Positions 6,001-55,402 of a stretch of DNA of 64,000 bases are shown piece by piece. The translations under genes and the position numbers were made by a program. The notes under the pieces are model-generated. The model was not told where the DNA came from. It did no database searches and saw only the letters and a program-made list of their open reading frames with translations. Position 1 is the stretch's first letter. Each line of letters begins with the position of its first letter. This DNA is from Drouetiella hepatica Uher 2000/2452 (GTDB taxonomy: Bacteria > Cyanobacteriota > Cyanobacteriia > Elainellales > Elainellaceae), in assembly GCA_019359505.1 (NCBI GenBank), contig JAHHHD010000013.1:62001-126000 (forward strand), written 5' to 3'.

Positions 6001-8179
6001 ACTCTGGCGGGCTGACACCGGACAACTGCAAGCTCGTCTGCCTCAATCTAGCGACATTGTAAGCCTGCAATTTAGCCCCGATGGAAAGATGTTTCTGGCA
6101 GCCTTACAGGGCGACGTGGCTCAGGCTGAATCGGGCAGCGCTCCATCAGCGACCAGATCAGCGAGTACCGTGCAACTCTGGCGACTCACGGCTGATCCGG
6201 CGCAGCAGTTAAAACTTCAGGCTCTATCGCCTCTTGTGCTGCCTAGCCCCATTACCTGTGCTAAATTCAGCCCCAGTAGTTCTATCGCCACCGCCAGCAC
6301 CGATGGCAAAGTTAGGCTGTGGAGCGCTACGGGGCAACTCCGTCAAACTTTCACACCTGCCCATCCTTCGACCCTTAGCCCCCAGCCCCCAGCCCAACTG
6401 CAATTTAGCCCAGATGAGAGCCTGTTGGCGATCGCTAGCCCTCAGCAAACCTGGCTCTGGAATCTTCAGACGGGTCAAATGCAAGCTGAGCTGATTCTAA
6501 CGCCGCACTCTGCAAAGGCAAACTCACTGGGGAATTCGCTGCTGCAATTTAGTCCCGATGGTCAGTTGATAATCACGAAGGGGTCTGCTGTACCCTCCTC
6601 AGAACAGGTCTATTTGTGGAATACCCAAACCGGGCAGCAGGTGAGCACAATGCAGAGCAACGGTGTTTTGGAATCAGCTGAGTTTAGTCCAGATGGCACC
6701 TACATAGCCCTAAATGCCAACGGCATCGTCCAACTTTGGGCCACAGAGGCGGGTGGCGAATTGCCTACCATCTATCCGCCTAACGCCATGGCAGAATGGT
6801 CAATGTTTTTGCCAGCCAGCACAGAGAAAGCTGCTCAACCTGCGACAGAGCAGGGGTTAAACCGTCCAGAACACGGCCCGATCGCCACTCGTTTAATGAC
6901 GGTTACTCCTGACGGCAAGCTACAAAACTGGCAAATCCTGGCAGATGCTCCTTCTCCTAGCCCAACACCGCCATCGGTTTCGCCGAGCTACAGCGCTATT
7001 ATGGAACCCCAGCGCATCTGGCAATACCTATCCGCTTTAATGGGGCAGCGATCGCCAAGTGGGCTATCCATGCTGTCCTCCGCTGCACCTAAATCTGCTG
7101 AAACTGAGTCTGCGGAACCGACAAAGGCAGAGGCACAAAACCCAAGCGCGATTCAGCATGAGGGAGCGATCGCGGCTCTCAATGCCTATACAGCCTTACC
7201 TGGAAGTGTTCTCAGCCCCTCATTGAACAGCCGTTCTTTAAACAGCCGATTGAGTGGAGTCGCGTTTAGCCCAGAGGGGCAGCACATTGTTACTGCTACA
7301 GCAGAAGGGCAGATGGACGTTCAATCTATGCAGCCCGATCGCTCTACAGCGCCGATACTAAAAATTCGCAATTGGCGATTGATTCCAGGACAGAATGCGG
7401 CGCTCAGCGAAGTTGTGAAGCCCAGCAGCTCTCAGCTCAGTAGCCCTGGCGGTGAACCTCTCAGCATTAGCCAGCTTAGTTTTAGCCCTGATGGTCGTCA
7501 AATATTGGGTGTAGGGGACGACTTAACGGTGCGCCTATGGGATGCACAAACTGGACAACTGCTGAGAGTATTTAAGGGTCATAAAGCAACGATACAAAGG
7601 GCAAGCTTTAGCCCGGATGGTCGAGAGATTGTCACCGCGAGCTGGGATCGCACTGTGCAGATTTGGCAGATTGCTTCTGGTGAAGCAATTCAGATCTTGA
7701 GTCATGCCGATGCAGTTAATGGCGCAAGCTTTAGCCCCGATGGTCAGCATATAGCTACGGCAAGCTGGGATGGCAGGGCGAGAGTGTGGAGCCGAAAAAC
7801 GGGCAAGCTGAAGTTTTTGCTAACCGGGCATGGGGCAGAAGTATTTGATGCTGAGTTTAGTCCAGATGGCCGATCGCTTGTGACCGCCAGCGCCGATGGG
7901 ACAGCGATCGTCTGGGATGCTCGAACTGGGCACAAGCAGTCTCATTTGCGTCCTGGGTTTGAAGACAAGCCGCCGATTCCTCTTTTGCAGGCAAACTTTA
8001 GCCCGGATGGACAGTACATCGCTACTCGAACTAAGGATGGAAAAGTGCATCTTTGGGCAGGTACCTGGGAGATGTTGCTAAAACTTGCCCGCGATCGTAG
8101 CCTTCGTCAGCTCACTCCTGAAGAATGCAATCGCTACCTGAGAGCAGAATCGGGCGCTTGCCCAACATTACCTCTTTAA
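3020..8179 (+). CDS. Metacaspase-like / nSTAND1 NTPase / WD40 protein
   Basis: A three-part protein of about 1719 residues. Residues 1-240 are a caspase-like (peptidase C14, clan CD) domain with the catalytic His in FYFSGHGIQ (near 92) and Cys in ILDCCHSGEF (near 142). Residues 255-700 are an nSTAND1-type NTPase starting at YRGLECF, with P-loop GASGIGKSS near 300 and Walker B LLIIDQFEEAF. One hydrophobic segment lies near 745-765. From about 835 to the end there are about 14 WD40 repeats, most with the SPDG turn and a final LW or VW. STAND proteins are signal-activated switches, and caspase-STAND-WD40 forms are linked to regulated cell death or defence. The start is taken as ATG at 3020, 7 nt after AGG; the TTG just before it is less likely. 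Low-complexity Ser/Asn/Thr and Pro/Ser inserts interrupt the repeat array. Its activating signal is unknown. Confidence 0.9.
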   Translation: MSRDALVVGINTYKFMSGLQAPASDAEAIAQQLHTYGEFRVHRLPEVIQAGKPQVGQKTTITLRELESSLINLFKPKGNTIPHTALFYFSGHGIQREAGIQEGYLALSDSNPDKGSYGLSLFWLRRLLQESPVRQRIVILDCCHSGEFLHFLEADPGARPGTDRLFMAASREYETAYESLESPYSIFTQAILTGLDPSRVESGTVTSHSLTDWVSHKLKSEIQQPLFESSGSEIILTRGVGGQSIIPKVHKSSPICPYRGLECFDETHSEYFFGREELTAELVNKLQSDRFVAIVGASGIGKSSLVRAGLVATLKQRAPLQWQIKFLTPGEHPLKSLANAFIDSNLGNLERAEQLRRAETFLQDGGRGLAQLVQASLPMSSAVSGAIRPRMLLIIDQFEEAFTLSRGSRAEQERQQFFNCLMGALEATDSDLSVAIALRSDFQSKCALYEGLAHKIEQHRVVVNPLKYEQIKATILKPAQKIGLVCEPSLVYNMMLDIIGAPGELPLLQYTLLELWNHRRTGLEGGVARLTLDTYQELGGMRGTLQKRATEVFSQLTLEEQTVAKRIFLALTQLGEGTEDTRRRVMKSELVSSVFPAALVEQVLEKMVAAKLVVTSCERGWQAPKKQDQIGSTAIGSSIVLDKQLTGEMVDVVHETLIRNWGLLRNWLDENREMLRRMRRIEQAAQEWGSAGQPSGEFLMNGLRLRDAEDFQRTYPQELSALAQRYIAASHSETRRARRESRQLQIAVPTVLLIALAAVLNQYRGTLHWQAEKDHQIQLATSRERAAIAQTILQDGSSDPMTALLVSRLAAESGGANYETQSSLRAALQDLRLQLELKGHEGAVHQLAFSPDRRHLATAGADGRLRLWAIDAQTILNSPLKPIKTLSWSELRNSEVSSSQTESSEISKPDSNKTNNSKTESDNTKGDKTGIRAIAFSPDGRQVAAIAHNSPLVKVWSVETGTVLLQLTNLAPVNQVMFSPDGKWVATQSDRSISLWRADTGQLQARLPQSSDIVSLQFSPDGKMFLAALQGDVAQAESGSAPSATRSASTVQLWRLTADPAQQLKLQALSPLVLPSPITCAKFSPSSSIATASTDGKVRLWSATGQLRQTFTPAHPSTLSPQPPAQLQFSPDESLLAIASPQQTWLWNLQTGQMQAELILTPHSAKANSLGNSLLQFSPDGQLIITKGSAVPSSEQVYLWNTQTGQQVSTMQSNGVLESAEFSPDGTYIALNANGIVQLWATEAGGELPTIYPPNAMAEWSMFLPASTEKAAQPATEQGLNRPEHGPIATRLMTVTPDGKLQNWQILADAPSPSPTPPSVSPSYSAIMEPQRIWQYLSALMGQRSPSGLSMLSSAAPKSAETESAEPTKAEAQNPSAIQHEGAIAALNAYTALPGSVLSPSLNSRSLNSRLSGVAFSPEGQHIVTATAEGQMDVQSMQPDRSTAPILKIRNWRLIPGQNAALSEVVKPSSSQLSSPGGEPLSISQLSFSPDGRQILGVGDDLTVRLWDAQTGQLLRVFKGHKATIQRASFSPDGREIVTASWDRTVQIWQIASGEAIQILSHADAVNGASFSPDGQHIATASWDGRARVWSRKTGKLKFLLTGHGAEVFDAEFSPDGRSLVTASADGTAIVWDARTGHKQSHLRPGFEDKPPIPLLQANFSPDGQYIATRTKDGKVHLWAGTWEMLLKLARDRSLRQLTPEECNRYLRAESGACPTLPL

Positions 8180-8195
8180 CAATAAGATGTCGGGC

Positions 8196-8264
8196 TATGA
8201 TTTTTTTGAAAGGGGGCGCTCTGCGCCCCCTTTCAAAAAAATCATACATAAAACTAGCAACGCC
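8196..8264. terminator. Triloop hairpin C1, probable bidirectional terminator
   Basis: Two perfectly complementary 24-nt arms (8196-8219 and 8223-8246) enclose a 3-nt loop TCT. The arms consist of a T-run, GAAAG and a GC-rich tip, so either strand gives a GC stem followed by U-rich sequence. It begins 17 nt after the stop of the caspase-like gene, as expected for an intrinsic terminator. The 3' flank (ATAAAACTAGCAACGCC, 8248-8264) recurs beside hairpins C2 and C3, so this is also a dispersed repeat. Confidence 0.8.
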
Positions 8265-8314
8265 AAAAAATCATCTACGGTAGAGTGAGAGGTAAAATCT
8301 CGACTAGATGAGAA

Positions 8315-10015
8315 ATGGCTAATCTTGTAAGCAGCATTTTGAAATGGTATGTGCAAAATGGACTGATTCTGCTGGTTGCGATCGCCCTCATTGGCTTTCC
8401 TGCATTTGCTCAAGAAATCAGCCCGTCTGGAAATCAGCCATCTGGAAATCAAATTGACGGTTATCCAGTCATGCTCAACAATCAGCCGATCTTTTGGGTT
8501 AGACAAGGCGTAGCTGACGTTGTTTCGGCTCAAGAACGCGCCAAAATTATTGGTGATAGATTGGAGCAGATTGCCAGCAAAAATTCTGTTTCGGTAGAAT
8601 CCATTACCGTTGACGAGCAGCCAGATGGCTCAATTCTCAAAGCCGATAAGTTAACCCTTCTGACTATTCGAGACAATGACGCTAAGGCGAACAATCAGTC
8701 ACGTCAAGCCTTAGCTGCAGAAGCATTGCGAAAGATTAGAAGTGCGATCGCCCAATATCGAGAGGAGCGCAGTTTCAAGACGCTAATGATCAACATTAGC
8801 TTGGCAGCCCTTAGCACGATCGCCTTGCTGCTGTTTCTGCGAGGTCAACATTTCATCTTCGGAAAACTGCTTTCTAGAATCAGGGAAGCTCACAAGCAAG
8901 ATCGACTAGGGTTGCGCGTCGGCACCTCTCGCCTGCTCGGATCAAACGCAACTGATTATCTGCTCAAGACCTTAATTCGCCTCGGTAAGCTAGCGCTGAC
9001 TTTAGCGGCATTTTACCTCTACCTTCCGTTTATTCTTAGCCAGTTTCCTACGACAAGAGCCTTTAGCAATCAAGTTTTTGGTGACATTACCTACCGCACT
9101 AATCAGTTAGCTCAGTCGTTTGTGCAGTATTTACCTAATCTGATTGCGATCGTCGTGATTGGATTCGTGACGTATTACATTATCGGGTTCGCCAAGCTTG
9201 CAATTATTGAGCTAGGGCGAGGAGATGCCTATCCTTGGTTTTATCCAGAGTGGACAAGACCTACGGTACGTCTCGTAACATTTTTAATTATTGCGATCGC
9301 CTGCGTAGTGGCTGGTCCCTATCTCCCTGGATTTGGTTCTCCAGTATTTCAAGGTGTTTCTCTTTTCCTAGGGGCACTATTCACGCTAGGATCTTCTTCC
9401 GCTATTTCCAACGTCGTTTCTGGAATCATTTTGATTTACACTCGTGCTTTCCGAGTAGGTGACATGATTCAGATTGGAGATGTAACAGGCGAAGTCATCG
9501 AAAAGTCCTTATTCGTGACTCGATTGATCAATTCCAAGAATGTTATCACGACTTTACCCAACGCGGCGGTATTGAATGGCAGCGTAATTAATATGAGCGC
9601 TGCTCTGCGTCAATCTGAAAATAGTCTAGTTCTGCATACTACGATTACGCTAGGATATGACGTGCCCTGGAGAACCGTCCACCAAGTTCTCATAGAAGCT
9701 GCCAAAGCAACAGAAAATATCTTGCCAGAACCACGATCGTTTGTGTTGCAGACCGCGTTGAATGATTTTAACGTTAGCTATGAGCTGAACGTTCATATCG
9801 ATCGACCCGACATTATGCCAATAATTTACTCAGAGCTGTATCAAAACATTCAGGATCATTGCAATCAGGCTGGCATTGAGATCTTGTCTCCAACTTACTC
9901 AGCCCTTAGGGACGGCAACCACTCGACCATTCCTACAAATTACTTATCTCAAAACTACAGTTCACCAACCTTCCGCATCAACGTTCAGGATAGTAATTCC
10001 CAAGAAAGCGGTTGA
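8315..10015 (+). CDS. MscS-family mechanosensitive ion channel
   Basis: A 566-residue membrane protein with a likely signal peptide (hydrophobic to about residue 30, ending FPAFAQ). A periplasmic stretch of about 110 residues follows, then about five membrane segments between residues 155 and 360. The last of these, rich in Gly, Ala and Ser (FLGALFTLGSSSAISNVVSG), is the pore helix and leads into the cytoplasmic MscS beta domain (FRVGDMIQIGDVTGEV). MscS channels release solutes on osmotic downshock, and larger members such as this often have extra helices and specialised roles. It stands alone between hairpin C1 and a convergent small gene. The start is the ATG at 8315, and no strong Shine-Dalgarno is visible. 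Confidence 0.88.
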   Translation: MANLVSSILKWYVQNGLILLVAIALIGFPAFAQEISPSGNQPSGNQIDGYPVMLNNQPIFWVRQGVADVVSAQERAKIIGDRLEQIASKNSVSVESITVDEQPDGSILKADKLTLLTIRDNDAKANNQSRQALAAEALRKIRSAIAQYREERSFKTLMINISLAALSTIALLLFLRGQHFIFGKLLSRIREAHKQDRLGLRVGTSRLLGSNATDYLLKTLIRLGKLALTLAAFYLYLPFILSQFPTTRAFSNQVFGDITYRTNQLAQSFVQYLPNLIAIVVIGFVTYYIIGFAKLAIIELGRGDAYPWFYPEWTRPTVRLVTFLIIAIACVVAGPYLPGFGSPVFQGVSLFLGALFTLGSSSAISNVVSGIILIYTRAFRVGDMIQIGDVTGEVIEKSLFVTRLINSKNVITTLPNAAVLNGSVINMSAALRQSENSLVLHTTITLGYDVPWRTVHQVLIEAAKATENILPEPRSFVLQTALNDFNVSYELNVHIDRPDIMPIIYSELYQNIQDHCNQAGIEILSPTYSALRDGNHSTIPTNYLSQNYSSPTFRINVQDSNSQESG

Positions 10016-10106
10016 TAAGAAAACAGTTGAGTTATCTCTGTCAATATACTGAGGGATCTTCTGATACTGCGAAGACATTGCTAATCAGAACCTCACTGAG
10101 CTGAGC

Positions 10107-10406
10107 CTAATTTTGATCTAGGGGCACCGAAAGTTCTATTCTTTGCTCCGACTGTGGCTGAACTTCCCGCACATCAAGACCCTCATTAGAAATCCTGACG
10201 CGGGTTTCTGGATTAGGCTGCTCATAGATTTCAACGTTGACTCGATCGCCATCAGAGGAGACACGTGGGCGCAGCTCAGACCCTTGTCTACCCAAATTAA
10301 TTTGAAGGCCGTCACCTAGTTGAATCGCTTGAGCGGAGGCAGGAACCGTCCCCACCGTTAATCCCATTAATGCTGCACCCAAGCAGCTGATTAGCTGATT
10401 TTTCAT
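10107..10406 (-). CDS. Small secreted protein of unknown function
   Basis: About 99 residues from the ATG at 10406, which has GGGGT 7 nt upstream; in-frame codons further upstream lack such a site. The N-terminus is a signal peptide (MKNQL, hydrophobic core, then PASAQA). The mature part is polar and beta-rich with many Arg, Glu and Val residues and no cysteines. I do not recognise the family. It faces the MscS gene tail to tail. It is probably periplasmic; no function is proposed. Confidence 0.65.
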   Translation of the reverse strand: MKNQLISCLGAALMGLTVGTVPASAQAIQLGDGLQINLGRQGSELRPRVSSDGDRVNVEIYEQPNPETRVRISNEGLDVREVQPQSEQRIELSVPLDQN

Positions 10407-10625
10407 GAGTTTTACCCCGTTTTTAAGATTGGCTTTGATTACCAATGTGGCAAATTTAGGAAACGATACCCTCTAACGTGAGGCTCATATTTTTAGCGGG
10501 AAGCATTTCCAAAAAGGAATAGTGTCCTGAGACAGGTTGCACAATGTTCCAAAACACGTCCATTCAGATTGGGCTAGCCCACTATAATGAAGGTCTGAAG
10601 GGCTTTGAGAGGTGGTAATCCCGTT

Positions 10626-11201
10626 ATGGCAAAGCAAAAAAACCACGATCCTCAGTGGATTAAAGAAACGTTTGAACTTGAAGACGATCATCGTTGGGAG
10701 TCCAATCCGGGCTATAAGATTTTTGTCGCCGATCGCGGTGCAGTTCGTTTTGACGTGCCGCAGGATTGGATCTTTCAGCCAGATGATAAATCCTTTAAGT
10801 TTCTCGATCGCCAGCCTCCCGACGATGATTGCCGCCTAGAAGTGTCGTTCAATCGGCTTCCAGAAGGAGATTGGGCAGGGTTTCCCCTTCAGTCTACGCT
10901 GCGGAAAATTGTTGATGACGATGAGCGCAATGTAATTGCCAAAGCGGATATCGTGACGGTTAAACGCCAAACCGCTCGGATTGTCTGGACAGAAATTAAG
11001 TTTATTGATGCGCCAGAAAATCGGGAGGCTTTCTCCCGAATCTGCATTGGCTTAGGCTCAAACGTGCAGTGCTTGATCACCTTAGACTATTGGGCAGATG
11101 ATGCCGATCGCTTGATTCCCGTTTGGGATGAAGTGTTGCGATCCCTGACTTTAGGCCTATACATTCGTGACCCTAGAATCGGTACGGCTTTGCCCGATTA
11201 G
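10626..11201 (+). CDS. Conserved-looking hypothetical protein
   Basis: A soluble protein of 191 residues beginning MAKQKNHDPQW. The ATG at 10626 is preceded by GAGAGGTGG about 10 nt upstream and is preferred over an in-frame TTG at 10605. It is acidic and has no signal peptide or membrane segment. I do not recognise a named family. Aromatic and Asp/Arg residues are spread evenly, as in a compact alpha/beta domain. The next gene (photolyase) starts 30 nt downstream on the same strand, so the two may share a transcript. That hints at, but does not show, a link to light or DNA damage. Confidence 0.7.
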   Translation: MAKQKNHDPQWIKETFELEDDHRWESNPGYKIFVADRGAVRFDVPQDWIFQPDDKSFKFLDRQPPDDDCRLEVSFNRLPEGDWAGFPLQSTLRKIVDDDERNVIAKADIVTVKRQTARIVWTEIKFIDAPENREAFSRICIGLGSNVQCLITLDYWADDADRLIPVWDEVLRSLTLGLYIRDPRIGTALPD

Positions 11202-11231
11202 CTCGCCAAATTCGCTTGCCAGATTAAGACT

Positions 11232-12902
11232 ATGAATCGCACGATTGTCTGGTTTCGGCGAGATTTGCGGATTGCCGACCATGCCCCGCTCTATCGGGCG
11301 GCGCTCCGGGGAGCGGTAATTCCAGTGTTTATATTCGATCGCGCTCTGCTACACCACCCTGAGACTGCTCCAGCTAGGGTAGCGTTTATGCTGGAATGCC
11401 TAGCAAGCCTGGATCGAGATCTGCAAGCTCACGGCGGTCGGCTAATTCTGCGATCCGGCGACCCGGCAGAGGTGCTGCCCCATCTAGTGCGTGAAACTCA
11501 AGCAGAGGGAATCTATGCCCACATTGACTATGAGAGGATCTATGGGCGGGTGCGAGATGCAAGGCTGAATCGCGCCTTAGCAGAGCAGCAGATGAAAATC
11601 CGCTGGTTTGAGCCGACTGCTGGCGTGGCTGATTTGATTGCCTATCCGCAGTATCGAGATTTCTGGTTTGCCGAAATGCGTCAGGAAATGTCGCCAACGC
11701 CCGATCGCATTCAGACTCCGCCAAGTATTCACAGCGAGCCTTTGCCTTCGCTGGCAGATCTGAAGCTGATTCCTGACTCAAAGCCGATTCCCTCTGGCGG
11801 AACTGCCGCTGCCCGTCAGATCTTGCAGGAATTTCTAGATGAAAAAGTCGATCGCTACTACTGGCAGTTGTCTTACCCTGGTGCTGAAGCCACGACGGGA
11901 CTCAGTCCCCATCTGAAATTTGGCGCGATTTCTATTCGAGAATGCTACCAAACGGCTCAACAGCTCAAGTCTTCAGATAGTTTCAAGGTGCAGCGGAGTC
12001 GCAAGCAGCTGATCTCACGTTTGCGGTGGGGCAGCGGCTTTGCTCAGCGGTTCCGCTACTTGCCACAGTTGGAATTGCGATCGCTCTACACTATCTTTGA
12101 TGAAGAAGGCTGGGAGTTTGACGAGGCGCTTTATGAAGCGTGGCAAACCGGACAAACCGGGTTTCCTATCGTGGATGCAGCAGCGCGGTGCCTGCAAGAG
12201 ACAGGCGGCTGGAAGCAGCTCAATTTTCGAGTGCGCGCCCTCCATTCCAGCTTTCTGAGCAATCTTTTGGGAATAGACTGGCGATATGGGGCACTGCACT
12301 TCATGCGGCATCTGATTGATGGCGATTGTCCGATCGATCACTATCAATGGGCAATGCAATCAGGCGTGACCCATTGTGTAGACAAAACTTGGACGCGCAT
12401 TTATAACCCTGGACAGGTGGCGATCGATCGCTGTGATCCAGAGGGTTTATTCATCAAGCGCTGGGTGCCTGAAGTGGCTCACCTTTCGCCAGAGCAGCTT
12501 GGCACACCGCCGCCGCTGTTAGGAAACTATCCTTCACCCATTTTGGATTACAAGTCGGCTCGTCAGCGGCGGGTGAAGCAGCTTGAACGTCAGCGTCAAA
12601 CTTTCCTGAACCAGAAAAATGTGGTGCCCTATTTGGCAAGACTGCCGGAGTTTATGACTCCGTTTGGCAGCGATCGCTTTCCGGGTAGCGAGGTAGAATG
12701 GGCGACGATGCCAAATCTAGAGCTTTTCCCGACCCCGCTGGATTTGGAGAGCTTAGATTTGGCTCAGGCTCAGGCTTTGCGTACCTGGTTTACGGCCCAT
12801 GTGAATATTCTGCCGCAGAAGGGGCGATCGCGTCGTTCTCCTAAGAAGGATAAAAAAGAGAAGCGTCCTGCTGACTTTTCGCAGCTGAGTTTGCTGGACT
12901 AA
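11232..12902 (+). CDS. Photolyase / cryptochrome family flavoprotein
   Basis: 556 residues. Residues 1-165 form the Rossmann-like antenna domain (TIVWFRRDLRIADH). Residues from about 195 form the helical FAD domain, with QTGFPIVDAAARCLQ near 305 and the RIYNPGQ motif near 385. Photolyases repair UV-induced pyrimidine dimers with light; cryptochromes are relatives that signal. The segment where canonical CPD photolyases have NNGGWQW reads PIDHYQWAMQSG here (near 367-378), shorter and without the usual Asn facing the flavin. The substrate, or even photolyase activity, should therefore not be assumed. The Lys/Arg-rich tail (near 540) could bind DNA. It lies 30 nt after a small unknown gene. Confidence 0.88.
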   Translation: MNRTIVWFRRDLRIADHAPLYRAALRGAVIPVFIFDRALLHHPETAPARVAFMLECLASLDRDLQAHGGRLILRSGDPAEVLPHLVRETQAEGIYAHIDYERIYGRVRDARLNRALAEQQMKIRWFEPTAGVADLIAYPQYRDFWFAEMRQEMSPTPDRIQTPPSIHSEPLPSLADLKLIPDSKPIPSGGTAAARQILQEFLDEKVDRYYWQLSYPGAEATTGLSPHLKFGAISIRECYQTAQQLKSSDSFKVQRSRKQLISRLRWGSGFAQRFRYLPQLELRSLYTIFDEEGWEFDEALYEAWQTGQTGFPIVDAAARCLQETGGWKQLNFRVRALHSSFLSNLLGIDWRYGALHFMRHLIDGDCPIDHYQWAMQSGVTHCVDKTWTRIYNPGQVAIDRCDPEGLFIKRWVPEVAHLSPEQLGTPPPLLGNYPSPILDYKSARQRRVKQLERQRQTFLNQKNVVPYLARLPEFMTPFGSDRFPGSEVEWATMPNLELFPTPLDLESLDLAQAQALRTWFTAHVNILPQKGRSRRSPKKDKKEKRPADFSQLSLLD

Positions 12903-13036
12903 TTGTTCTGTAAGTGGATTCGCAAAATACCCGACGAGGGAATGCGATCGCTCCATTCACTATTCCATAATTGAGTCATCAATTAAGTCATCATCGGTAA
13001 CAGCTCAACCTCCTTACCCATCAGAGGAAGATTCTC

Positions 13037-13318
13037 ATGTCAAATCTATCTGCTTCAGCTTCTGCTGCAACGTCTAAACCTGGCGTGACTCAACCCGTGA
13101 GTAAAAGCTGGAAAACTACGGCGATTGGCATTGTCCTAGCCCTCAGCGGTTTTGTAGCATTCTCACCAGAGGCTTTTGGGGGCAATAATGCCTTCATCGT
13201 CAAACTCTGCAAATTTATCAATATTGGCGGATTAGCAGCATTAGGTGTCACGGCTAAAGATTTTGATGTCACAGGCGGCAGCCAGCCTATTACAGATAAG
13301 CAGCATCCAATGAGCTAA
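13037..13318 (+). CDS. Small two-helix membrane protein
   Basis: 93 residues: a Ser/Ala/Thr-rich N-terminus, a hydrophobic helix (IGIVLALSGFVAF, near 35-48), a second one (FINIGGLAALGVTAK, near 62-76), and a polar tail with a VTGG motif. The layout recalls small holin-like membrane proteins, but this is a resemblance of shape only. The ATG has AGAGGAAG upstream, a good ribosome site. Hairpin C2 starts 8 nt after the stop, so the gene is probably a single unit. Confidence 0.6.
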   Translation: MSNLSASASAATSKPGVTQPVSKSWKTTAIGIVLALSGFVAFSPEAFGGNNAFIVKLCKFINIGGLAALGVTAKDFDVTGGSQPITDKQHPMS

Positions 13319-13325
13319 ATCTGAG

Positions 13326-13388
13326 GATGTTTTTTGAAAGGGGCGCTCAGCGCCCCTTTCAAAAAACATCTATAAAACTGATAACGCC
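13326..13388. terminator. Triloop hairpin C2, probable bidirectional terminator
   Basis: Arms 13326-13346 and 13350-13370 are perfectly complementary over 21 nt with loop TCA. The design matches C1 (T-run, GAAAG, GGGGCGC tip), and the flank ATAAAACTGATAACGCC is nearly identical to that of C1. It starts 8 nt after the stop of the small membrane protein. Confidence 0.8.
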
Positions 13389-13465
13389 TCAAATCTCTCC
13401 TATCGCCGAGCATTGAGAGGACGACGAAGAGCGCTAGGATAGACCTAATTCTTGGCGCTCTCATC

Positions 13466-14350
13466 GTGAACTTGTTCAACCGCACCTCTACTCCCATTTC
13501 TAAATCTACGGCGCTCAGGGAAGACGATCGCCATAGACCTGCCCAGCCGTTGCTTTCGGCAGACGTGATAGCTCCCCTCACGGTCGGCATTCTGGTACTC
13601 GTTCTGTGGGAAATAGCGGTTCGAGTCACCCATATGCCGCCCTACCTGCTGCCGGGGCCTCTGTTAGTCGCACAAACGCTGGTTTCCGACTGGAATACGC
13701 TATTTCCATCGCTCTTGATCACGCTACAGATTACTATCGTTGCCTTTATTGCAGCAGTGGTGTCAGGTCTGTTAGTTGCTATTCTATTTACTCAGAGCAA
13801 ATGGATCGAGCGGAGTCTGTTTCCCTATGCCGTCATCCTACAAACCACGCCGATTGTGGCGATCGCCCCTCTGATTATTCTTTGGGTGCGGCGCGTTGTG
13901 CCCGACGAAAGCTCTACCTTCGTTTCGCTCGTCATTTGTGCCTGGATTGTGGCTTTTTTCCCCATTCTTTCTAACACCACACTGGGTCTGAAGAGCGCTG
14001 ATCACAATCTAGCTAACCTGTTCCAGCTCTACAAAGCCTCGCCTTGGCAAACGCTACGCTACCTGCGTCTGCCGAGCGCCATGCCCTACTTTTTGGGCGG
14101 ACTGCGGATCAGCGGCGGGTTGGCTCTTATCGGCGCGGTTGTGGCAGAATTTGTCGCTGGGACGGGAGGAACCCGATCGGGCATTGCTTACCAAATTTTG
14201 ATTTCCAGCTTCAATCTGCAAATCCCGCGTATGTTTGCAGCTCTAGTGATGACGACCGCTTTGGGGGTCGCCATTTTTCTGCTCCTCACGCTCCTATCTG
14301 ACCAGATTTTGCGTAACTGGCATGAAAGTGCGGTCAAGCGAGAAAACTAA
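13466..14350 (+). CDS. ABC transporter permease, SsuC/TauC/ThiX type
   Basis: 294 residues with about six membrane segments and the inner-membrane permease signature near residues 190-225 (YKASPWQTLRYLRLPSAMPY, then GGLRISGGLALIGAV), where the ATPase docks. The family imports sulfonates, taurine, nitrate-like anions or thiamine precursors. The start is GTG at 13466; no ATG lies close by. No ATP-binding subunit or solute-binding protein is visible nearby, so it must work with parts encoded elsewhere. The amidohydrolase 45 nt downstream is probably co-transcribed and suggests a cyclic nitrogen compound such as a pyrimidine as substrate; this is inference. Confidence 0.87.
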   Translation: MNLFNRTSTPISKSTALREDDRHRPAQPLLSADVIAPLTVGILVLVLWEIAVRVTHMPPYLLPGPLLVAQTLVSDWNTLFPSLLITLQITIVAFIAAVVSGLLVAILFTQSKWIERSLFPYAVILQTTPIVAIAPLIILWVRRVVPDESSTFVSLVICAWIVAFFPILSNTTLGLKSADHNLANLFQLYKASPWQTLRYLRLPSAMPYFLGGLRISGGLALIGAVVAEFVAGTGGTRSGIAYQILISSFNLQIPRMFAALVMTTALGVAIFLLLTLLSDQILRNWHESAVKREN

Positions 14351-14395
14351 AATCTTTACTTCTACTACTAAAGTCTTCATCTCTAGAGTCATCCC

Positions 14396-15802
14396 ATGCC
14401 ATCTACCCCGCCTGCTTCTAGCCACTACTGGATCAGAAACGCCCATATTCCGGTGGCTCTTCTCCATCAGCCCCATGCAGCGATCGCCGCTCAACAAACC
14501 TTTGAGGGCTTGTCCTGTATAGATATCGAAATTCGAGAAGGGGCGATCGCTCAAGTTATTCCTGCCCACAGCCAGATTCCTGCCGATAGCCAGGTGGAAA
14601 CAATTGACCTCCGTCAGGGTATTGTGTTTCCTTGCTTTGTGGATATGCACACCCATCTGGACAAAGGGCATACCTGGGGACGAGCGCCTAATCTACAGGG
14701 CACATTTGAAAACGCTCTGACAACCGTGGAAACCGATCGACAAAAAAACTGGAATGTCGAAGATGTCTATCGCCGGATGGAGTTTGGGCTAAAGTGCAGC
14801 TACGCCCATGGCACTCAGGCGATTCGTACCCATATTGATTCCCTAGAGGGACAGGCGATCGTTAGCCTAGAAGCCCTGAAAATGTTGCAAACCGAGTGGC
14901 AAGGGCGGCTGAGTCTGCAAGCCGTTTCGCTCTTACCATTGGAAAGCTTTGAAACGTCGGAGGGCGAAAAGATTGCCGATTTATTTGCGGCATCAGGGGG
15001 AGTATTGGGCGGTCTAGTGCTGATGAATGAGCGCTTAGATCACCAGCTCGATCGCGTTTTTGCCATGGCGATCGATCGTGGGTTAAGCCTCGACTTCCAT
15101 ACCGACGAAAGCGGCGACCCTGAAGAAATTACTCTGCGTCATGTTGCCTCTGCCGCTATCCGCCACCAGTTCACAAACCAAATTGTTTGTGGACACTGCT
15201 GTAGTCTTGCGGTGCAGCCACCCAACGAAGTGAAAAAAACGATGGATCTTGTCAAAGAAGCGAGAATCGGCATCGTCAGCCTTCCCATGTGCAACCTCTA
15301 TCTACAAGATCGCAACCAGCAAGCCTCCCAACACTTTGCCCAAACGCTCTCTTCCGCCTCTCCTGACTTGATGCCCTACCCAGCTGACATCCCAACGCAT
15401 ACGCCTCGCTGGCGCGGTGTGACGCTACTGCATGAGCTGAGGCACAGCGGCATCCCGGTGGCGGTCGCTAGCGACAACTGCCGCGATCCCTTTTATGGAT
15501 TTGGCGATCATGACATGGTAGAGGTCTTGACTCAGGCGACCCGCATTGCTCACTTTGATGCCCCCTATGGCGACTGGTGCCGCACCGTTACCCAAACTCC
15601 AGCCGAGTTAATGGGGCTGTCTGCAATGGCTCAAATTGGCATAGGGTTACCCGCCGATCTGGTGCTGTTCAAAGCTCGTCACTATAGCGAACTGTTTGCT
15701 CGTCCCCAGAGCGATCGCGTGGTTCTGCGTCAGGGGAGGGCGATCGACAGGACGCTGCCTGATTATGCCGATTTGGATGATCTAGTGCAAAACCCTACGT
15801 GA
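14396..15802 (+). CDS. Amidohydrolase, cytosine-deaminase-like
   Basis: 468 residues of the metal-dependent amidohydrolase superfamily. Metal ligands are visible in HTHLDKGH (near 83-90), a later HTDESGD, CGHCCSL and the ASDNCRDPF region. The HTHLDK form is typical of cytosine deaminases and related cyclic-amide hydrolases rather than of dihydroorotases or ureases. A likely role is to hydrolyse a nitrogen heterocycle taken up through the ABC permease encoded just upstream. There is no signal peptide, so it acts in the cytoplasm. Hairpin C3 follows 19 nt after the stop. The exact substrate cannot be read from the sequence. Confidence 0.85.
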   Translation: MPSTPPASSHYWIRNAHIPVALLHQPHAAIAAQQTFEGLSCIDIEIREGAIAQVIPAHSQIPADSQVETIDLRQGIVFPCFVDMHTHLDKGHTWGRAPNLQGTFENALTTVETDRQKNWNVEDVYRRMEFGLKCSYAHGTQAIRTHIDSLEGQAIVSLEALKMLQTEWQGRLSLQAVSLLPLESFETSEGEKIADLFAASGGVLGGLVLMNERLDHQLDRVFAMAIDRGLSLDFHTDESGDPEEITLRHVASAAIRHQFTNQIVCGHCCSLAVQPPNEVKKTMDLVKEARIGIVSLPMCNLYLQDRNQQASQHFAQTLSSASPDLMPYPADIPTHTPRWRGVTLLHELRHSGIPVAVASDNCRDPFYGFGDHDMVEVLTQATRIAHFDAPYGDWCRTVTQTPAELMGLSAMAQIGIGLPADLVLFKARHYSELFARPQSDRVVLRQGRAIDRTLPDYADLDDLVQNPT

Positions 15803-15814
15803 AATAAAGCGAGG

Positions 15815-15878
15815 GTATGAATTTTTTTGGAAAGGGGCGCCCCTTTCCAAAAAAATCACATATGAAATCAGCAACGCC
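15815..15878. terminator. Hairpin C3, probable bidirectional terminator
   Basis: A perfect palindrome with 18-nt arms (15821-15838 and 15839-15856) and no unpaired centre (tip GGGGCGCCCC). The arms carry the same T-run and GGAAAGGGG pattern as C1 and C2, and the 3' flank ATATGAAATCAGCAACGCC matches theirs. It lies between the amidohydrolase gene and the converging peptidoglycan-binding gene. Confidence 0.75.
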
Positions 15879-17552: not shown

Positions 17553-17688
17553 TCACAGTAGATCGCAAAGTCTTCCTATTTTTTCTAAAAGCTGGATTTC
17601 AAAGGCGTGGAGCGCCTTTGAAATCCAGCTTTTAGGGTTTTGGGGCGCGCGGAGCGCGCCACAAAACCCTAATTTCGATCTACTGAGT
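17553..17688. repeat. Double-hairpin element B1 between bioA and bioB
   Basis: Terminal inverted repeats (left CAGTAGATCGCAAAGT from 17556, right AATTTCGATCTACTG ending 17685) enclose two hairpins. The first is 17585-17635, with arms of more than 20 nt around GGA (counting one G-T pair). The second is 17634-17670, with 17-nt arms, one mismatch and loop GGA. The first-hairpin arm CTGGATTTCAAAGGCG also occurs in element B2 33 kb away, so the two are copies of one mobile-type repeat. Read from the minus strand it could terminate bioA transcripts before bioB. Confidence 0.75.
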
Positions 17689-25026: not shown

Positions 25027-25119
25027 TATGGCAACCGCCAAGGCGATTGGGATGGGGAATCAGGGTGGGGCGCGAAGCGCCCCACCCTGAATTTCCTAAG
25101 CAAACTGGCGACAGCTACA
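25027..25119 (+). mobile_element. Family A palindromic element A1
   Basis: Left end TATGGCAACCGCCAAGGCG, right end TAAGCAAACTGGCGACAGC followed by TACA. Inner arms TCAGGGTGGGGCGC (25060-25073) and complement (25077-25090) with loop GAA. Lies about 380 nt upstream of the giant RTX gene. Confidence 0.75.
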
Positions 25120-31500: not shown

Positions 31501-34500
31501 CAATTGGAACGGTGACTACGAACACAAGTGGTTCGTTGATGTTGACGTTCAACAGCAGCGCTACTGGAGCCTTAGTCACAAGTGCGCTGCAACAAATTGC
31601 CTATAGAAATAGCAGCGATAATCCCCCGGCTGCAGTGACGATTAATTACACATTGAATGATCAGAATACAGGTGCGCAAGGATCAGGTGGAGCGCTGACT
31701 GGTACAGGAACTATCACGGTTAACATTACGGCTATTAATGACCCACCTGTGCTGGATTTGGATGCCAATAATAGCAGCACCGCAACTGGAGCAGACCACA
31801 AGGCCAGCTTCACCGAAGGGAGTAGTGCTGTTGCCATCGGTGATGTCGATGTCAGTGTAACGGATCTCGATAACGTCAACATTGTCTCAGCAACTATCAC
31901 GCTGACCAATCCTGTAGACGGTGTGGCTGATGTCTTAGGCGTTGTCGGAGGGCTACCAAGCGGTATTACAGCGAGTGCTTATAATCCAGCCACAGGCGTG
32001 ATTACCTTGACGGGTGCAGCAACGCTAGCCGCTTATCAAACGGCGATCGCCCAAATTAAGTACAGTAATACCTCCGACAATCCTACAGCAGTTAATCGTG
32101 CCATCACCGTTGTTGTGAATGACGGTGCCGCTAACAGTAATACGGCAACTACTACTATTAGTGTTGTTCCTGTCAACGATCCTCCTGTACTAGATCTCGA
32201 TGGTAATAACAGTAGTACTGCAACAGGATCAAGCTATAAAACTAGCTTTACTGAAGGGGGTAGTGCTGTTACCATTGGAGATGTTGATGTCAGCGTGACC
32301 GATCTCGATAACACCAACATTGCCTCGGCAACCATTACGTTAACTAATCGATTGGATGGTGCAGCTGATGTCTTAAGCGTCTTAGGGGCGCTACCGGGTG
32401 GCATTACGGCGAGTGCTTATAATCCAGCTACAGGCATGATCACCTTGACGGGTGCAGCAACGCTAACTGCTTATCAAAGTGCGATCGCCCAAGTCACCTA
32501 TAGCAATACCTCTGACAATCCTACAGCAACCGATCGTACCATTACCGTTGTCGTCAATGACGGCACAGCAAACAGCAACATTGCTACCACGACTATTAGC
32601 ATCACACCAGTCAACGATCCACCCGTGCTGGATCTGGATGGTAATAACAGCAGCACAGCAACAGGTGCAGACTACAAAACCACCTTTACCGAAGGCGGCA
32701 GTGCTATTGCTATTGGGGATGTTGATGTCAGCGTGACCGATCTCGATAATGCCAATATTGCTTCAGCAACCATTACGTTAACTAATCGCTTAGATGGTGC
32801 GGCTGATGTCTTGAGCGTCTTAGGGGCGCTACCGAGTGGCATTACGGCGAGTGCTTATAATCCAGCCACAGGCGTGATTACCTTGACGGGTGCAGCAACG
32901 CTAACCGCTTATCAAAGTGCGATCGCCCAAGTCACCTATAGCAACGCCTCTGACAATCCTACAGCAACCGATCGTACCATTACCGTTGTCGTTAATGACG
33001 GTGCCGCTAACAGCAATGTTGCTACCACAACGATTAGCATCACACCAGTCAATGATCCACCCGTGCTGGATCTGGATGGTAATAACAGCAGCACAGCAAC
33101 AGGTGCAGACTACAAAACCACCTTTACCGAAGGCGGCAGTGCTATTGCTATTGGCGATGTTGATGTCAGTGTAATGGATTTCGATAACACCAACATTGCC
33201 TCGGCAACCATTACCTTAACTAATCGCTTAGATGGTGCGGCTGATGTCTTGAGCGTTTTAGGGGCGCTACCGGGTGGCATTACGGCGAGTGCTTATAATC
33301 CAGCCACAGGCGTGATTACCTTGACGGGTGCAGCAACGCTAACCGCTTATCAAAGTGCGATCGCCCAAGTCACCTATAGCAACGCCTCTGACAATCCTAC
33401 AGCAACCGATCGTACCATTACCGTTGTCGTTAATGACGGTGCCGCTAACAGCAATGTTGCTACCACAACGATTAGCATCACACCAGTCAATGATCCACCC
33501 GTGCTGGATCTGGATGCCAATAATAGCAGCACAGCAACAGGTGCAGACTACAAAGCCAGCTTCACCGAAGGTGGTAGTGCTATTGCTATTGGTGATGTCG
33601 ATGTCAGTATAACGGATCTTGATAATGCCAATATTGTCTCAGCAACTGTCAAGCTGACCAATCCTGTAGACGGTGTGGCTGATGTCTTAGGCGTTGTTGG
33701 AGGGCTACCAAGCGGTATTACAGCAAGTGCTTATGACTCAACAACAGGCGTGATTACCTTGACGGGGTCTGCTACTTTGGCAGCTTATCAAAGTGCGATC
33801 GCCCAAGTCACCTATAGCAATACATCTGACAATCCTACAGCAACCGATCGTACTATCACCGTTGTCGTTAATGATGGGGCTGCCAACAGCAACATTGCTA
33901 CCACAACGATTAGCATCACACCAGTCAACGATCCGCCCATGCTGGATCTGGATGGTAATAACAGCAGCACAGCAACGGGTGCAGATTACAAAACCACCTT
34001 TACCGAAGGCGGCAGTGCTGTTGCCATTGGCGATGTTGATGTCAGTGTAACGGAGCCTGATAACGCCAACATTGTCTCAGCAACTATCACACTGACTAAT
34101 CGATTAGACGGTGCGGCTGATGTCTTGAGTGTTTTAGGAACATTGCCAAGCGGCATCACGGCGAGTGCTTACGATCCTGCCACAGGTGTAATTACCTTGA
34201 CGGGTGCAGCAACGCTAGCCGCTTACCAAAGTGCGATCGCCCAAGTTGCCTACAGCAATACCTTGGACAATCCTACAGCAACCGATCGCACCATCACCGT
34301 TGTTGTCAATGACGGCACAGCCAACAGCAATGTTGCTACCACAACTGTTAGCATCACACCAGTCAATGATCCTCCCGTATTAGATCTGGATGCTGATAAC
34401 AGCAGCACAGCAACAGGTGCAGACTATAAGACTAGGCTTACCAGAGGCAGCAGTGGCGTTGCCGTTAGTGATGTTGATGTCAGTGTGACCGATCTCGACA

Positions 34501-36800: not shown

Positions 36801-37194
36801 TGACCTCAGCAGAGACTATTGCAGCCGCCTTTGCGGTGAGGCTGATGAGGTCTTTAGATAGTGCGCTTCCGCACCAAAAATCTCATCAGCCAGATTCTCA
36901 TCAGCCAGATAGTGATGGCTATACAATCCCCCTGCTAAAGCTACCAATAACTGACTTGATATAGAAACCGCCTTGGCGGTTAGGACCGGGAAATTTATGG
37001 TGGGACGCGAAGCGCCCCACCATAAATTTCCTAAGCAAACTGGCGACAGCTATATCTATGAGATGCCTAAGTCATCAGGGAGGAATGTCATTAAATCCGT
37101 TGAACCTAGAAAAAGTATTTTTTGGGAACAATAAACATGACTACGACCTGAAACTCAGCTGCCATATCAGGATTCTCTCACTATCTTTTTCACC
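36801..37194. other. Intergenic region after the RTX gene
   Basis: Contains an imperfect hairpin (36840-36891) with outer arms GGCTGATGAG / CTCATCAGCC and inner stem GTGCG-CTTC-CGCAC. A smaller CCGC-CTTT-GCGG stem precedes it at 36824. A 15-bp tandem duplication (36882 and 36897) and family A element A2 complete the contents. The hairpins lie 25-90 nt after the stop and may terminate the 11-kb transcript. No gene is seen. Confidence 0.6.
36959..37055 (+). mobile_element. Family A palindromic element A2
   Basis: Left end ATATAGAAACCGCC, right end TAAGCAAACTGGCGACAGC then TATAT. Inner arms 36991-37008 / 37012-37029 (18 nt, one A-C mismatch, loop GAA). Between two large plus-strand surface-protein genes. 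Confidence 0.75.
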
Positions 37195-39904: not shown

Positions 39905-39998
39905 TATAGCTGTCGCCAGTTAGCTCAGGAGATATAGGGTGGGGCGCGAAGCGCCCCACCCTATATCTCCTGAGCTAACTGTCTTGGCAATTGCTGTA
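39905..39998 (-). mobile_element. Family A palindromic element A4 with 31-nt perfect arms
   Basis: Opposite orientation to A1-A3: starts TATAGCTGTCGCCAGTTAG. Arms 39917-39947 and 39951-39981 are complementary at all 31 positions around loop GAA, the longest hairpin in the window. It sits 4 nt from E1 and between converging genes. Confidence 0.78.
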
Positions 39999-43984: not shown

Positions 43985-44080
43985 TATAGCAACCGCCAAG
44001 GTGGTTATGACGAGGATATTTAGGGTAGAGCGCTTTGCGCTCTACCCTAAATATCCTAAGCAAACTGGCGACAGCTATAT
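43985..44080 (+). mobile_element. Family A palindromic element A3
   Basis: Left end TATAGCAACCGCCAAGG, right end TAAGCAAACTGGCGACAGC then TATAT. Arms 44013-44033 / 44037-44057 (21 nt, perfect) with loop TTT. The arm sequence (GGGTAGAGCGC) differs from A1 and A4, while the outer flanks are nearly the same. Confidence 0.78.
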
Positions 44081-50404: not shown

Positions 50405-50828
50405 AGGTGCCAAGGGGGATTAGTTGCCTCTATATTGCCCATTTCGACGAAGTTTTTCACATTGAGCTGATCGCGCCTGTTGGAACGATTAACCTATCAA
50501 TTCTTAGCAGATCGTAAAGTCCCCCTGATTTTTCCAAAAGCTGGATTTCAAAGGCGCACTGCGCCTTTGAAATCCAGCTTTTGGAGTTTTGTGGGGCGCG
50601 CCGCGCGCCCCAAAACTCTAATTTGCGATCGACTGATTCTTAACAAGTTATGCGATTTGTTAGCCTCTGTAACTAAATTGTCAATTGCCCCCATTCTCAA
50701 TGATTAGAATGGGAATGTTAAAGGAGTAACGATATACAACAATCTTGAAAAATCAGCGCTGCGTCAATCGGTTTTTCCAGAAGGTTTTCTAGACTGTATT
50801 CGATCGCTCCACACTCATTGTTTTAATT
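50405..50828. other. Divergent intergenic region with element B2 and a small hairpin
   Basis: Contains element B2 (50501-50637), then an 8-bp hairpin CCCATTCT / AGAATGGG (50690-50697 and 50706-50713). The last 110 nt before the SSADH gene probably include its promoter. No gene is seen. Confidence 0.6.
50501..50637. repeat. Double-hairpin element B2
   Basis: Inverted ends (AGCAGATCGTAAAGT at 50506 and AATTTGCGATCGACTG) match those of B1. The first hairpin is 50534-50584: 24-nt arms, perfect, loop ACT, with the same CTGGATTTCAAAGGCG arm as B1. The second is 50585-50617, loop CCG, with a 2-nt bulge. It sits in a divergent promoter region, where a terminator alone would make little sense. Confidence 0.75.
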
Positions 50829-55311: not shown

Positions 55312-55402
55312 TGTAGCAACCGTCAAGGCGGCTAGGACGGGGACTTTTTGGGTGGGGTGCAGCGCCCCACCCAAAAAGTCCTAAGCAAGGCAATAGCCAT
55401 AT
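55312..55402 (+). mobile_element. Family A palindromic element A5
   Basis: Left end TGTAGCAACCGTCAAGGCGG, then CTAGGACGGGG. Arms 55341-55359 / 55363-55381 (19 nt, one T-G pair, loop CAG). Right flank TCCTAAGCAAGGC, then AATAGCCATAT, diverged from the other copies. Confidence 0.72.

Follow-up and report, generated by a model that had tools for sequence, protein, structure and literature searches.

The gene-end hairpins that share a tail in Drouetiella hepatica belong to a family of miniature transposable elements with IS1-type ends

Hairpins at three gene ends

The stretch of DNA analysed, referred to as the window, comprises 64,000 nucleotides of the cyanobacterium Drouetiella hepatica Uher 2000/2452 (contig JAHHHD010000013.1, positions 62,001 to 126,000, of assembly GCA_019359505.1). 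Three hairpins in the window, C1, C2 and C3, follow the stop codons TAA (8177–8179), TAA (13316–13318) and TGA (15800–15802), with 16, 7 and 18 nt between stop and stem. This is close to the 8–19 nt of the original prediction, which had noticed matching tails downstream of the three hairpins and proposed a mobile repeat that was either taken over as a terminator or targets terminators. Each of the three hairpins forms a perfect palindrome, the arms measuring 18–24 bp, and the tails start 1–3 nt past the stem (ATAAAACTAGCAACGCC in C1, ATAAAACTGATAACGCC in C2 and ATATGAAATCAGCAACGCC in C3). The sharing of the tails is confirmed; each tail represents the right-hand terminal inverted repeat of a miniature inverted-repeat transposable element (MITE) of about 87 bp. 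The copies in the window, with the scores of the covariance model described below, are as follows.

8178–8264, + strand: C1, decayed MITE copy; palindrome 8196–8246 with 24-bp arms; right terminal repeat (tail) 8248–8264; 57.7 bits
13308–13388, + strand: C2, decayed MITE copy; palindrome 13326–13370 with 22-bp arms; right terminal repeat (tail) 13372–13388; 58.4 bits
15803–15878, + strand: C3, decayed MITE copy; palindrome 15821–15856 with 18-bp arms; right terminal repeat (tail) 15860–15878; 53.6 bits
58778–58859, − strand: fourth MITE copy; both ends recognisable; flanks alike at 6 of 8 bases

The left end of C1 is not recognisable (mismatches at 9 of 12 positions, as compared to 1 of 12 at the right end), that of C2 is only a partial match (GCTAAATCTGAGGATG), and in C3 the left repeat is gone as far as GGGTATGAA. 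The scores of C1–C3 fall in the lower half of the genome list of copies, in keeping with decay. Both the left-side repeat end, lost or partial in these copies, and the fourth copy had been missed by the original prediction. The window is rich in GCGATCGC, and 19 matches to a loose tail pattern (up to 3 mismatches) occur in it, where 100 shuffles average 4.85.

Anatomy and copy number of the element

The search was extended to the whole genome of the strain (6.42 Mb, 87 contigs). With at most one mismatch, the tail gives 12 matches and the reversed control 8, so a tail this short is statistically weak by itself; yet 11 of the 12 matches lie directly beside a hairpin. Reading of the tail-match sites revealed a block, GGCATTGCTGAATCTGGGTATGA, conserved opposite the tail across the hairpin. 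Its first ten bases are, save one base, the inverted repeat of the tail end (GGCGTTGCTG), and its first 15 bases (one mismatch allowed) match the genome 66 times, as compared to once for the reversed control. Since this opposite end exists to the left of the hairpin, the tail is a transposon end. The complete element consists of GGCATTGCTGAATCTGGGTATGA, a palindrome (a T run, GAAAGGGGCGC, a loop and the mirror image) and the tail ATAAAACCAGCAACGCC. The terminal repeats, GGCRTTGCTGAATCTGGGTATGA on the left and the tail on the right, are imperfect and surround the long palindrome; GGCRTTGCTG is present at both ends as terminal inverted repeats.

BLAST with one whole copy returned at least 78 matches, both strands counted (best 40 of 253 candidates). 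A covariance model built from 20 copies, for which the best 150 of 4131 candidates were scored, returned at least 147 matches on both strands, and merging the strands leaves at least 97 places. Six of the 97 are copies of another, second repeat that shares the core but has other ends (GGTAGTGTTTCAAATGTGTTG...), and one (C39:18157, contig:position) is a bare core; leaving out these seven, 90 copies were kept for the analysis of tract polarity and arms. The repeat is short, without coding capacity and present in high copy number, as expected of a MITE. It is a new family of a kind of element that is already well known. We did not find a description of it in the literature searched, which included accessible portions of PMC10969869, PMC13289151, PMC4666352, PMC2246112 and PMC11448079; this is not proof of absence.

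The two arms of the palindrome are 81.5% identical within one copy and 70.4% identical between copies (2000 permutations, largest value 72.4%). The arms change together, with GGGGCGC/GCGCCCC, GGGTCAC/GTGACCC and GGTGCGC/GCGCACC found among the copies. Template-switch correction of quasi-palindromes is a known process. The coordinated change points to this process, to founders with different cores or to selection on the hairpin, which the count cannot separate; subfamilies alone would yield such a difference within and between copies.

The second MITE-like repeat of this genome (GGTAGTGTTTCAAATGTGTTG... / ...GTCTAGAACATCACC) has the hairpin core of the main MITE, and one of its copies has an 8/8 duplication. 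The hairpin core seems to be common to different element families. The copies of this second repeat are located at:

C12:20969 (L238)
C47:30582 (L247)
C40:151613 (L248)
C73:25472 (L249)
C46:3530 (L253)
C82:44144 (L264)

Other MITEs of about 146–198 bp (L048, L055, L066 and L071) show the same ends with interiors of CCCCCAATTCTGGGGG-type repeats.

Target duplications and empty sites

The 8-mers flanking the element are alike at 6 or more of 8 positions in 41 of the 97 places, as compared to 0.4 expected at equal base frequencies. The duplicated 8-mers are richer in AT than the flanks (61% versus 53%, n = 41). For the copy at C22:322364, an empty site is found in a genome of the same genus (G002), which has CTCTACTGG a single time; in D. 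hepatica this sequence flanks the element on either side. Together with the terminal inverted repeats and the IS1-family elements with similar ends in relatives (see below), the duplications and this clean empty site bear out the proposal of a mobile repeat. A second candidate empty site, at C22:324517 (8/8 duplication), was rejected, as relatives carry other DNA there.

At the C2 locus, another genome of the same genus (G003) is without the element, and the G002 sequence is unrelated. At the C3 locus, the gene end through TGAAATAAAGCGA is common to G002 and the sequences diverge after that; at the C1 locus, the relatives diverge past the gene end. Donation of the C3 stop codon by the MITE end was rejected, since an element-free relative shares this stop; the C3 stop is native. 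For C2, the gene end of the relative (AGCTGA) itself resembles the repeat end, and the stop may be either native or donated.

The probable parent transposase

Matches to IS1 at E ≤ 1e-15 occur in 22 of 36 genomes of the taxonomic family. In related genomes, we inspected 24 loci from the IS1 subgroup with the lower scores. Four of them (L174, L175, L180 and L184) have inward-facing ends of this type 754–757 bp apart and exact 8-bp duplications; the remaining 20 are without an end pair or without a duplication. The protein of L184 is DDE_Tnp_IS1 (E = 2.9e-25). These elements (PF03400) resemble the MITE in their terminal repeats, GGCGTTGCTGAATC / GGCGTTGCATAAT, and in duplicating 8 bp, but they differ in having a transposase gene, whereas the MITE retains the ends alone. 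The MITE left end is alike at 19–20 of 26 positions to the 3′ ends of L174, L175 and L184, and IS5-like ends are alike at 12–14 of 26. As the IS1 elements of relatives have similar ends and likewise 8-bp duplications, sequence comparison indicates that an IS1-type transposase is probably the mover of the MITE. An autonomous partner with similar ends exists in related genomes and was not found intact in the genome of D. hepatica, where four places match the IS1 transposase family PF03400, the best of which has an internal stop. These relics were rejected as the direct parent, as no matching ends lie beside the four places. Of 25 genomes searched with up to 2 mismatches, 14, including that of D. 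hepatica, contain the end repeat (reversed control 0), and the 23-base left end is found in five records of the public genome collection, all five from cyanobacteria.

IS5/IS903-like transposases were the first alternative parent, since two such elements are located in the genome of D. hepatica. Its two PF13737 transposases have GGCGTTGTTGCAT upstream, and one IS5/IS903-like open reading frame (ORF) of 262 amino acids is left (P0001). In relatives, however, IS5/IS903-like elements duplicate 9 bp (exact repeats at 9 of 29 loci), not the 8 bp of the MITE, and beyond similar first bases the inner match to the MITE ends is poor. We rejected these transposases as the parent and regard mobilisation by them in place of IS1 as unlikely.

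Placement relative to genes

Gap classes were assigned from simple ORF calls of at least 80 amino acids. Of the 97 places, 83 are intergenic copies (tandem gaps 41, divergent 24, convergent 18), 13 lie inside an ORF (several of these ORFs short) and one lies at an edge; 70 control gaps from the same loci divide into 43 tandem, 14 divergent and 13 convergent. Convergent gaps were rejected as preferred sites, there being no clear difference between 18 of 83 intergenic copies and 13 of 70 control gaps. Within tandem gaps, 30 of 41 copies lie closer to the upstream stop (p = 0.004), or 27 of 38 when the copies of the window are left out (p = 0.014).

Distances to codons were counted with ORFs of at least 160 amino acids, leaving out C1–C3 and the copies inside ORFs. 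A stop lies 0–8 nt from the element on 22 of 73 stop sides (examples are C83:73798, C22:322364 and C85:43224), where uniform placement in the gap would give 9.8; the two 9-nt bins that follow hold 6 and 7. On the start side, 1 of 91 distances is 0–8 nt (4.1 expected). Of the proposal that the repeat targets terminators or gene ends, the excess of nearby stop codons stands, but the intergenic copies are spread over all three gap classes, and gene-end targeting is weakly supported. That three of three copies in the window follow stops is partly luck. A mild AT preference combined with selection against upstream insertions may explain the stop-side excess, though a genuine preference for stop codons is also conceivable. 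We rejected the idea that repeat ends facing a stop are lost preferentially, as no association was seen (9–13 of 28 lost ends versus 26–46 of 131 kept ends within 60–100 nt of a stop, p 0.21–0.38).

Tract polarity and RNA structure

An intrinsic terminator is a GC-rich hairpin directly followed by a U tract. In 80 of the 90 copies, a T run lies 5′ and an A run 3′ of the GC stem, the reverse of this arrangement, and the polarity is the same on both strands because the unit is a palindrome. The GC stem is followed by an A tract and not by a U tract. A consensus terminator scan of the region gave seven terminator-like sites (9.0 in shuffles), none of them on C1–C3. Both strands are predicted to fold into strong RNA structures (−27 to −42 kcal/mol, z −4.6 to −9.1), and Rfam returned at the hairpins only sub-threshold chance matches to microRNA families.

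We regard it as very unlikely that the hairpins are intrinsic terminators that share a tail by chance, or that they stem from a mobile repeat which has been domesticated for termination. Their position close behind stop codons, the stability of the stems and the bias to the stop side in tandem gaps would fit such a role, but the polarity of the tracts, the outcome of the scan and the 24 intergenic copies in divergent gaps, where there is nothing to terminate, argue against it. The proposed takeover as a terminator is thus unsupported, since on either strand the T run precedes the GC stem, where a terminator would have it follow. Judged by its sequence, the MITE hairpin does not resemble an ordinary transcription terminator, and the idea fails on anatomy. 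At L009 (about 1455–1517), the same tail stands beside a hairpin of the opposite, terminator-like tract polarity (AAAAAGCAGGGTCGC...GCGACCCTGCTTTTT).

A further alternative is that the hairpins are repetitive extragenic palindromic (REP) or REPIN-type palindromes mobilised by a RAYT (Y1) transposase. They are short, mostly intergenic palindromes in about 100 copies, as this would demand, but they have terminal inverted repeats and target duplications. REP elements have a GTAG/CGTC tag at the foot of the stem, according to the portion of PMC3733652 consulted; neither tag is present in the MITE consensus, where the foot is GGGTATGAA. We consider a REP origin extremely improbable.

Other repeats in the window

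The loose tail pattern also matched ATCAAAGTGCGATCGCC-like sequences at a spacing of 438 bp in 32035–33803, a recurrence that suggests a long tandem repeat there. Another dispersed palindrome family carries a conserved tail like TAAGCAAACTGGCGACAGCTATA after GGTGGGGCGCGAAGCGCCCCACC-type stems. Its members are:

25060–25090: TAAGCAAACTGGCGACAGCTATA-tailed palindrome
36989–37031: TAAGCAAACTGGCGACAGCTATA-tailed palindrome
39917–39981, − strand: TAAGCAAACTGGCGACAGCTATA-tailed palindrome
44013–44057: TAAGCAAACTGGCGACAGCTATA-tailed palindrome
55341–55381: TAAGCAAACTGGCGACAGCTATA-tailed palindrome, tail shorter

A near-identical pair of long CCAAAAGCTGGATTTCAAAGGCGC-type palindromes is located at 17585–17635 and 50533–50585, with a second GC-rich hairpin after each.

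Discussion

The repeat is real and well supported but unremarkable in kind, namely a MITE of a cyanobacterium that carries IS1-type ends. We consider it very probable that C1–C3 are old copies of this non-autonomous element, moved in trans by an IS1-family transposase. The (DDE) transposase would recognise the MITE ends, insert the element and duplicate 8 bp (occasionally 9) of the target. The IS1-family genes found in the D. hepatica assembly are broken or partial, and the MITE family would thus probably be largely immobile now. Ordinary decay would strip one end from single copies, as in C1–C3.

Several observations weigh against this explanation. C1–C3 keep no target duplication, and none of their loci gives a clean empty site in relatives. 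The D. hepatica genome yielded no intact IS1-type element with such ends, its PF03400 places being without matching ends, and it also harbours a family of IS5/IS903-like elements whose ends (GGCGTTGTTGCAT) are partly similar. At its right end, the MITE agrees less well with the IS1 5′ ends (17–18 of 26 positions) than its left end does with the 3′ ends. The excess of stop codons at the element is not explained by plain random insertion.

Another cyanobacterial MITE, Nezha, is named in the part of PMC10969869 seen. The 187-bp ISL3-type MITE of Microcystis, as described in the sections of PMC11448079 available, resembles the present one in being small and without a transposase gene and in having terminal inverted repeats, an 8-base target duplication, a stem-loop RNA and a mostly intergenic location. 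It differs in its terminal repeats (GGCTCTTCG), in its parent family and in its greater length; unlike it, the present MITE is nearly all palindrome.

If transcribed, the element would fold into a highly stable RNA hairpin whose stem includes the T and A tracts, and this hairpin would at most act as a REP-like 3′-end block to exonucleases. REP elements discussed as stabilisers of RNA 3′ ends in the portion of PMC13289151 seen are likewise strong hairpins after genes without a U tract; the MITE is unlike them in having terminal repeats and target duplications and no GTAG/CGTC tag, and 3′-end protection by the MITE hairpin would be possible. The same portion of this Synechococcus study reports that cyanobacteria are without Rho, that canonical terminators end only 22% of transcription units in Synechococcus (PMC13289151) and that Synechococcus is largely devoid of stabilising structures of the REP type. 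It is conceivable, if rather unlikely, that the element prefers stop-codon targets, that in a Rho-less lineage (as reported in that portion of PMC13289151) its copies give mRNAs REP-like protected 3′ ends and that the reversed polarity avoids terminating neighbours.

The puzzling tail becomes a record of transposition, with a likely mover named. Hairpins of MITEs can be mistaken for terminators in annotation, by eye or by machine. In a phylum reported to be without Rho, a mobile hairpin inserting close to stop codons would be a natural experiment on the formation of RNA 3′ ends.

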